Position numbers and translations under genes: made by a program. This document shows positions 57,685 through 59,512 of a DNA stretch of 64,000 nucleotides, in pieces (the first letter of the stretch is position 1; each line of letters starts with the position of its first letter). Source of the stretch: Natronorubrum halophilum. Lineage in GTDB: Archaea; Halobacteriota; Halobacteria; Halobacteriales; Natrialbaceae. Under the pieces are notes generated by a model. It searched no databases and was not told where the DNA came from. It saw only the letters and a program-made list of their open reading frames with translations. The DNA lies in the NCBI RefSeq assembly GCF_003670115.1, contig NZ_QQTY01000001.1, positions 1 through 64,000 on the forward strand. Reading direction: 5' to 3'.

Positions 57685-57870
57685 GTACTCGGGTTGGCGT
57701 CTCGAGGGTATAGTAGCCACTGCATCGCAGGATGCACCCGATCCGAGACGACGTAGCTGTGACGGTGGACACTGTTGTGACATTATCGCCACCCCGAGCG
57801 CTTCTCGAGTCCGAATCGGCTTCGGACCGCCCGTGCGGACGCGTCCCACAGCCCCAGCCGTTTGAACACG

Positions 57871-58029
57871 CTTTTAAGGGGGGCAACGCTACTGCGTAGT
57901 ACACCCTACGCGGGGTTGATGATGCTCCTAGCTTCACAGGACTTCCGCCGGAATTGCTTCGGCACGGGGTACCCAGTGCCCCGGACAGCAGGGGAGCGCG
58001 AGCCCACGTGTAGGAGAGGTGAACAACCA
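57871..58029 (+). ncRNA. Structured leader of the L7Ae operon (possible H/ACA-like or L7Ae-binding RNA)
   Basis: A TATA-like cttttaag (57871-57878) precedes about 130-150 nt of leader. It contains GCGTAG-N6-CTACGC (57894-57911) and GGGG-TTGATGATG-CTCC (57912-57928), whose loop has TGATGA, a k-turn/k-loop-like element. GCCG-N9-CGGC (57947-57963) and GGCAC/GTGCC (57961-57980) follow. ACA triplets at 57936-57938 and 57985-57987 follow paired regions, as in H/ACA guides. L7Ae binds such motifs, so self-regulation or a guide RNA gene are both possible. A ribosome-binding GGTGA (58018-58022) precedes the ATG. The part 57685-57870 holds the tmcA promoter. Confidence 0.4.
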
Positions 58030-58392
58030 ATGTCAGTTTACGTAACCACAGACATCCCAGTCGACCTTGCAGAGGACGCCCTCGAGGCCCTCGAGGTCGC
58101 ACGAGACACCGGACGCGTAAAGAAAGGAACGAACGAAACGACGAAGGCGATCGAGCGCGGCAACGCCGACCTCGTCTACGTCGCCGAAGACGTTTCCCCG
58201 GAGGAGATCGTCATGCACCTGCCCGAACTCGCCGACGAGAAGGGCATTCCCGTCGTCTTTATCGAGACGCAGGACGACGTCGGCCACGCTGCCGGCCTCG
58301 AGGTCGGGAGCGCCGCCGCGGCGATCGTCGACACCGGAGAGGCGTCGGACGACGTCGAAGACATCGCTAGTAAGGTCGAGGACCTCGACTGA
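58030..58392 (+). CDS. rpl7ae: 50S ribosomal protein L7Ae
   Basis: A 120-residue L7Ae. It binds kink-turns in 23S rRNA, box C/D and H/ACA guide RNAs, and RNase [24 protein letters not shown] is the RNA-binding block, [19 protein letters not shown] the core, and [20 protein letters not shown] the loop that contacts the k-turn. Start ATG 58030 with GGTGA seven bases upstream, so translation is not leaderless. First gene of the operon rpl7ae-rps28e-rpl24e-ndk. Confidence 0.97.
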
Positions 58393-58403
58393 GGTGATCA
58401 GAG

Positions 58404-58628
58404 ATGAGTGCTGAAGAGGAAGAAAGCGGCTCTACGCCCGCCGAGGTCATCGAGATCGTCGGCAAGACCGGCATGCACGGCGAAGCCATGCAGGTCAAAT
58501 GCCGGATCAAGGAGGGCGAGAATCAGGGACGAATCATCACCCGAAACTGCCTCGGGCCGGTCCGCGAAGGGGACGTACTCCAGCTTCGCGAGACCGCCCG
58601 CGAGGCGGACTCCATCGGAGGACAATAA
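58404..58628 (+). CDS. rps28e: 30S ribosomal protein S28e
   Basis: A 74-residue eS28. [40 protein letters not shown] and [16 protein letters not shown] are the OB-fold family core. The short N-terminal acidic tail (SAEEEESGS) is a halophile feature. It begins 11 bp after rpl7ae, with GGTGA upstream (58393-58397). Confidence 0.96.
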
Positions 58629-58631
58629 CCA

Positions 58632-59051
58632 ATGGTCGAGAAGCGAACCTGCGACTACACCGGGGAGGAGATCGAGCCCGGAACGGGCATCATGTACGTC
58701 CAGAACAACGGTACCGTGCTCCACTTCGTCAACTCGAAGGCGGAGAAAAACTTCAAGCTCGGTCGCGAACCGCGTGACCTCGAGTGGACCGAGGAAGGTC
58801 GTCGCGGCAAGAGTCCGGCCCAGACTGAGACGGTGACCGAGGAGGAAGCCGATCAGGACGAGGTCGTCGACGAAGACGAGGACGAAGACCTCGACGCCGA
58901 GGAAGAAGCCGTCGACGAAGACGAGGACGAAGACCTCGACGCCGAGGAAGAAGCCGTCGACGAAGACGACGGGACCGAATCCGACGGTGACGAGGACGTC
59001 GCCGAGGACGAATCGGACGCCGAAGACGACACAGAAGAGGACGACGAATGA
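58632..59051 (+). CDS. rpl24e: 50S ribosomal protein L24e with repeated acidic tail
   Basis: A 139-residue eL24. The N-terminal 65 residues are the domain: RTCDYTGEEIEPGTGIMYVQ, NNGTVLHFVNSKAEKNFKLG, REPRDLEWTEEGRRGK. Of the four zinc cysteines of canonical L24e only the first remains (C-Y-T and V-N-S-K-A replace the others), so this is the zinc-free form. The last 75 residues are an acidic tail with a 15-residue unit (VDEDEDEDLDAEEEA) encoded by two perfect 45-bp copies (58866-58910, 58911-58955) and a partial third. Its ATGA overlaps ndk. Confidence 0.93.
   Translation: MVEKRTCDYTGEEIEPGTGIMYVQNNGTVLHFVNSKAEKNFKLGREPRDLEWTEEGRRGKSPAQTETVTEEEADQDEVVDEDEDEDLDAEEEAVDEDEDEDLDAEEEAVDEDDGTESDGDEDVAEDESDAEDDTEEDDE
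58866..58972 (+). repeat. 45-bp tandem duplication inside rpl24e
   Basis: Two identical 45-bp units (58866-58910 and 58911-58955) followed by 17 bases of a third. The unit encodes 15 acidic residues and keeps the frame. Perfect identity points to recent duplication by slippage or unequal crossing over. Confidence 0.85.
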
Positions 59052-59512
59052 GCGATCACGAGCGCACCTTCGTGATGGTCAAGCCCGACGCCTTCGCGCG
59101 CGGGCTCGTCGGCACGGTCATCTCCCGACTCGAGGACCGCGGGCTCAAACTCGTCGGTATCAAAGTCGAGACCATGCCCCGCGAGCGCGCCGAAGAGCAC
59201 TACGGCGAGCACGAAGACAAGCCGTTCTACGACGATCTCGTCGACTTCATCACCTCGGGACCGGTCGTTCCGATGGTCTGGGAGGGCCAGGACGCGACGC
59301 GCCAGGTCCGTCAGATGATCGGCGAGACCGATCCGCTCGAGGCCGAGCCGGGGACGATTCGCGGTGACTACGCGCTCGACCTCGGTCGAAACGTCGTTCA
59401 CGCCGCCGACCACGAGGACGAGGGCGCGAACGAGCGGGAAATTTCGATTCACTTCGACGACGACGAGCTGACGGACTACGACCAGCACGACGACGCCTGG
59501 CTCTACGAGTAA
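59048..59512 (+). CDS. ndk: Nucleoside diphosphate kinase
   Basis: A 154-residue NDK that passes the gamma phosphate from ATP to other NDPs through a phospho-His. RTFVMVKPDAFARGLVGTVI is the N-terminal motif, EHYGEHEDKPFYDDLVDF the Kpn-loop side, and GRNVVHAADHEDEGANERE contains the active-site His. The C-terminal end is acidic. Coupled to rpl24e. Confidence 0.97.
   Translation: MSDHERTFVMVKPDAFARGLVGTVISRLEDRGLKLVGIKVETMPRERAEEHYGEHEDKPFYDDLVDFITSGPVVPMVWEGQDATRQVRQMIGETDPLEAEPGTIRGDYALDLGRNVVHAADHEDEGANEREISIHFDDDELTDYDQHDDAWLYE

Follow-up and report, generated by a model that had tools for sequence, protein, structure and literature searches.

A kink-turn hairpin in the 5' leader of haloarchaeal l7ae mRNA as a probable site of autoregulation by L7Ae

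What role is played by the structured segment that directly precedes the gene for L7Ae in Natronorubrum halophilum? L7Ae functions in ribosomes, in C/D and H/ACA particles and in RNase P, and because of these multiple roles its dose must be set. In the window analyzed here (64,000 nucleotides of contig NZ_QQTY01000001.1), a first-pass annotation had marked positions 57871–58029 as the presumed leader of l7ae and had offered two explanations for it, i.e., control of L7Ae synthesis by L7Ae itself or a hidden H/ACA guide RNA. The features on which our analysis is based are collected in Table 1.

Table 1. Features of the l7ae leader and the adjoining genes (positions within the window)
Feature	Positions	Strand	Remarks
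TATA-box-like element TTTTAAGG of the l7ae promoter	57872–57879	+	33 nt upstream of stem P1
TACA, conserved, probable transcript 5' end	57900–57903	+	T 89/95, A 93/95, C 92/95, A 87/95
P1 5' strand CCUACGCG, outer C-helix	57905–57912	+	pairs with 58007–58014; covariation
GGGU, inner C-helix 5' strand	57913–57916	+	pairs with GCCC 58002–58005
Kink-turn bulge strand UGAU-GA	57917–57922	+	L3 = U57920; G1b-A2b = 57921–57922
NC-helix 5' strand GCUCCU-A-GCU	57924–57933	+	pairs with 57987–57997; covariation
Near-invariant apical loop motif RGGA (AGGA here)	57938–57941	+	G 93/95, G 88/95, A 93/95
Hypervariable apical extension	57942–57986	+	two extra hairpins in the window sequence
NC-helix 3' strand AGCAGGGGAGC	57987–57997	+	covariation
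Kink-turn non-bulged strand GA (G2n A1n)	58000–58001	+	A 95/95; G 84/95, A in 11
GCCC, inner C-helix 3' strand	58002–58005	+	CCC 58003–58005 pairs with GGG 57913–57915; G58002 pairs with U57916
Single-nucleotide bulge	58006	+	purine in most relatives
P1 3' strand CGUGUAGG	58007–58014	+	covariation
Shine-Dalgarno AGGUGA	58017–58022	+	complementary to the 16S 3' end of this genome, GGATCACCTCC
l7ae (eL8) coding sequence	58030–58392	+	TIGR03677, E value 1.5e-50, eL8/L7Ae equivalog; probable regulator and regulated gene
rps28e, rpl24e, ndk	58404–59512	+	NCBIfam matches; downstream of l7ae

The leader sits in the gap between l7ae and tmcA, a divergent gene on the minus strand that encodes tRNA-Met cytidine acetyltransferase. 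In relatives where both could be measured, the element TTTTA[AT][AG]G precedes P1 by 33–34 nt, and this spacing would place the transcript start probably near 57900–57903, with a leader of about 130 nt. The annotated segment is indeed structured and lies directly 5' of l7ae; its beginning at 57871, however, belongs to the promoter and not to the leader. Stem P1 ends 2 nt before the Shine-Dalgarno sequence, close to it but without overlap. Alignment of the L7Ae encoded in the window reveals the k-turn-binding motif N-E-x-x-K-x-x-x-R and shows that the residues reading GA pairs are retained; in the complex from Archaeoglobus fulgidus, contacts to the G:A pairs are made by the N and E of this motif (PMC6298567). 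Based on their close spacing, rps28e, rpl24e and ndk are probably co-transcribed with l7ae. The C-terminal tail of the L24e product (58860–59040) is long and acidic and includes an internal duplication, in which VDEDEDEDLDAEEEA occurs twice. A reading of the leader as an N-terminal extension of L7Ae was rejected; an in-frame ORF with a TTG codon at 57862 exists, but the differences in length among leaders are not multiples of three.

The leader in the window has a folding energy of -67.9 kcal/mol (z -2.70 versus shuffled sequences). Several hairpins had been annotated in it; folding and covariation point instead to one long hairpin with a variable tip (approximately 57900–58029), and this single extended hairpin accounts for the conservation in a MAFFT alignment of 27 leaders. 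The same leader is present at 80 haloarchaeal loci that were retrieved by L7Ae protein. Since the alignment of 95 loci was fitted to the model, the structure-blind MAFFT alignment of the 27 leaders provides the cleaner covariation test. In the latter, 97.2% of the cells pair and changes on both sides occur in 11 of 21 pairs, a result equalled by none of 500 shuffles, and sliding the pairing partner abolishes the covariation values. Among the 95 diverse loci of the model-fitted alignment, changes on both sides were found in 18 of 21 pairs (0 of 500 shuffles). Moreover, the top column pairs in an unguided covariation scan belong to the proposed structure. The first-pass annotation had named stems that fail to covary as evidence against a functional RNA; this check was run, and the stems covary.

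P1 together with the GGGU/GCCC pairing forms a C-helix of 12 bp, in which G-C, C-G and A-U changes on either side support the pairing register around the bulge at 58006. Thermodynamic prediction indicates that P1 is formed without protein, with a pairing probability of 0.99–1.0. The apical part ranges from 12 to 120 nt across the 95 loci. Large apical insertions of tens of nucleotides or more are present in L031, L004, L017, L116 and L186, all of which retain the core.

The hexamer TGATGA, which was found in only 0.6% of dinucleotide shuffles, is present once in the segment, as had been annotated. It does not form a terminal loop, but rather the 5' strand of an internal loop opposite the GA at 58000–58001. 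This arrangement combines a bulge of 3–4 nt, U-GA opposite GA, and covarying helices on both sides and, judged by these characteristics, UUGAUGA is the bulged strand of a kink-turn-like asymmetric internal loop. The bulge variants across the 95 loci are UGAU, CGAU, UGU, CGU and CAU; that of the window can be read as four bases, or as three if one more U is counted as part of the helix. The U57916.G58002 pair occupies the -1b:-1n position and is replaced by U-A in one related genus. The three-base bulges and the U-A replacement fix the register, so that the outer stem is the C-helix and the apical stem the NC-helix. In halobacterial family f2, e.g., L168, L173, L174, L196 and L207, position 2n has A in place of G (CAAG for CGAG), which should weaken the standard L7Ae contact.

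The leader might also be viewed as a constitutive translation enhancer or stabiliser whose resemblance to an L7Ae site is unused, and a stable 5' hairpin near the start site could indeed shield the mRNA. However, none of the 95 diverse loci deviates at the L3 U, G1b, A2b or A1n, while the stem bases change freely around them, and the element precedes the gene of a k-turn-binding protein in every locus examined. We regard the constitutive role as very improbable.

The second explanation offered for the segment, a hidden H/ACA guide RNA directing rRNA pseudouridylation, has some attractions, in that ACA triplets flank the stems and L7Ae also binds H/ACA RNAs. Furthermore, H/ACA hairpins have been described in H. 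volcanii, and haloarchaeal guides exist for positions 1956, 1958 and 2621 of 23S rRNA (PMC2584109). These hairpins, HP1 and HP2 (PMC2584109; Hvo1 and Hvo2 in PMC4652768), are likewise bound by L7Ae via a k-turn or k-loop, but they are characterized by the opposite k-turn polarity, a guide pocket, an ACA box and rRNA targets, none of which was found in the leader. In archaeal H/ACA hairpins the G:A pairs lie on the GA stem below the k-turn and above the guide pocket (PMC4652768). In the leader, by contrast, the bulge strand is on the 5' side and follows the outer helix, and the G:A pairs therefore stack on the apical helix. Nor does a guide pocket of about 5–8 nt per strand exist between P1 and the k-turn, given that P1 enters the k-turn with only one bulged base. 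The ACA triplets, which had been likened to those of double-hairpin H/ACA RNAs, are at chance level in the segment (4 versus 3.1 expected, P 0.39); the one nearest to the 3' end of the stem (58023) is 9 nt past P1, and no ACA directly follows the hairpin. The conserved unpaired columns are limited to TACA, the k-turn, RGGA and the start region, and the sequence from the stem to the start is variable between genera.

The search for targets led to the same result. We were unable to find in the leader any bipartite complementarity to the 23S 1956 or 1958 sites, or to 2621, for which a presumed target sequence was used. Other matches to 16S and 23S rRNA numbered 44 compared with a shuffled mean of 51, the 23S rRNA being only partial in the assembly. 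The Rfam H/ACA families produced no match to the leader, even at an E value of 10. With the polarity reversed, the pocket missing, the ACA triplets at chance frequency and the known target sites unmatched, the presence of a hidden guide is exceedingly improbable. A scan by guide pattern for an H/ACA guide elsewhere in the genome did not locate one; the first pattern gave 10 matches (1 in the control), while the second gave a single match, at what we read as the start of a coding sequence, with a control that was no lower. Like box C/D k-turns, the leader has a strand resembling box C (UGAUGA), and some relatives also have one resembling box D (CUGA), but the leader is one continuous hairpin with neither a guide nor a C'/D' pair. 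Mimicry of rRNA was also considered and rejected, as UUGAUGA, CACAGGAC, CAGGGAC and other words of the k-turn and loop are absent from the available 16S and 23S sequences.

Control of its own mRNA by archaeal L7Ae through k-turns, which the first-pass annotation had mentioned for some species, has been described in the literature (PMC5539422, PMC6298567). In S. acidocaldarius, L7Ae binds to a k-turn in the 5' UTR of its own mRNA and thereby represses it; upstream l7ae fragments from several archaea, one of them an H. volcanii fragment of about 50 bp, were responsive in a reporter assay (Daume et al. 2017, PMC5539422). The elements of S. acidocaldarius and other archaea have in common with that described here the gene, the position, the UGAUGA and GA strands and a nearby Shine-Dalgarno sequence; the haloarchaeal element differs in its size of about 85–200 nt and its long outer stem. 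According to a legend in the same report, the H. volcanii candidate for the bulge strand is located further upstream. Among Haloferax relatives, a set that does not include H. volcanii, the bulge strand lies approximately 105 nt 5' of the start codon, and a 50-bp construct would therefore miss it. By analogy with these relatives, we infer that the 5' half of the k-turn was not included in the published H. volcanii fragment. Thus, the reporter work seems to have covered a fragment and apparently never the intact haloarchaeal element.

The second published system is the l7ae leader of A. fulgidus, for which the complex with L7Ae has been solved and the ribosome site found to be occluded (Huang et al. 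2019, PMC6298567). It likewise has a GAU-type bulge and tandem G:A pairs, and serves as the published model of an OFF-switch. This leader is unstructured until it is folded by L7Ae, which hides the ribosome-binding site, the Shine-Dalgarno sequence being inside the C-helix. For the haloarchaeal C-helix, in contrast, stability is predicted even without the protein, and the helix stops just short of the Shine-Dalgarno sequence. Both characteristics are points against a translational switch of exactly the published kind in haloarchaea.

Taken as a whole, the covariation, the invariant k-turn nucleotides, the position before l7ae and the two published precedents (PMC5539422, PMC6298567) strongly support the first of the two proposed readings, autoregulation via a k-turn. 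We propose that the segment comprises the 5' leader of l7ae mRNA with a k-turn hairpin to which, in all likelihood, L7Ae binds and so represses its own translation; the repression perhaps extends to rps28e-rpl24e-ndk. Once the rRNA and guide-RNA sites are filled, free L7Ae would bind the kink-turn of the leader. Given the predicted stability of protein-free P1 and the position of the Shine-Dalgarno sequence 2 nt outside it, the block would be a steric one imposed by the kinked, L7Ae-bound hairpin, not by stem formation. The kinked complex would thereby keep the 30S subunit off, and control would operate by kinking and steric hindrance, unlike the change from unfolded to folded in A. fulgidus.

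The same two features, the predicted stability of the stem without protein and the location of the Shine-Dalgarno sequence outside it, would also fit a switch controlled by L7Ae that acts through the leader on the processing, stability or transcription of the mRNA rather than on ribosome access. Moreover, a Shine-Dalgarno sequence is reportedly not strictly required in haloarchaea (PMC8241225). However, translation is the regulated level in the archaea of PMC5539422 and PMC6298567, and the distance between the 3' edge of the stem and the Shine-Dalgarno region is held to a few nucleotides. A switch at a level other than translation is thus improbable, and repression of translation by L7Ae remains the reading that we adopt.

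Two further observations count against the proposed model. One is the A at 2n in family f2, and the other is the RGGA motif of the apical loop, which the model leaves unexplained and the conservation of which nearly equals that of the k-turn among the 95 loci. In 80 of the 95 loci, a distance of 15 nt separates RGGA from the k-turn GA, whereas the remainder of the tip is variable. The two arms are of similar and near-fixed length, in that the NC-helix ends 11 nt from the GA in 93 of 95 loci and P1 ends 13 nt from it in 90 of 95. No covarying partner for RGGA was found in the 95 loci. A switch in which UCCU of the NC-helix 5' strand pairs with the AGGA loop was tried and rejected (longest run, mean 3.61 versus 3.71 permuted; variants, 2.32 versus 3.02 for random loops); as RGGA does not covary with the UCC of this strand, it is not part of a local alternative hairpin. 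With a kink in place, the RGGA loop would come to lie next to the start region and the foot of P1. Thus, we speculate that the leader could be a preformed switch with two arms, in which L7Ae folds the apical arm back against the outer stem of equal length and RGGA docks at the ribosome-binding region, with tertiary docking rather than stem formation causing repression, but we consider this version unlikely and put it forward only tentatively.

A covariance model based on the 27 leaders matched 370 of 391 genomes of the class Halobacteria, representing 79 of 86 genera, nearly always in one copy. One match per locus, ending at the l7ae start codon, was obtained in 95 of the 95 loci searched, and the match ended there wherever its position could be compared with that of l7ae. 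Of the 21 genomes that gave no match, 14 were examined. Ten of these carry a diverged version of the leader, in many cases with UCGUGA; the other four are basal (families f5 and f11), and in them the Shine-Dalgarno sequence is preceded by just a small canonical UGAUGA/GA hairpin. In more distant relatives of the phylum, short UGAUGA hairpins are located immediately 5' of GGAGG. Given the small hairpins in both of these groups, the large leader looks like an enlargement, within the haloarchaea, of an ancestral small switch. No family in Rfam 15 matches the leader, and no L7Ae relative was confirmed in viral contigs.

Autoregulation of L7Ae via a k-turn in the 5' UTR was known, and its enlarged haloarchaeal version is well supported. 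Its covariation-supported structure, which is not in the main text of PMC5539422 or PMC6298567, defines a probable control element of the haloarchaea and points to a shift, in that other archaea have small hairpins folded by the protein and haloarchaea a large one that is apparently preformed; it also brings to light the RGGA loop as a second conserved element beside the k-turn. In l7ae leaders from outside the haloarchaea (L225–L247), the region about 30–70 nt before the L7Ae match often contains a tandem YGATGA-NN-GATGA that adjoins the Shine-Dalgarno sequence; one k-turn would need only one copy.
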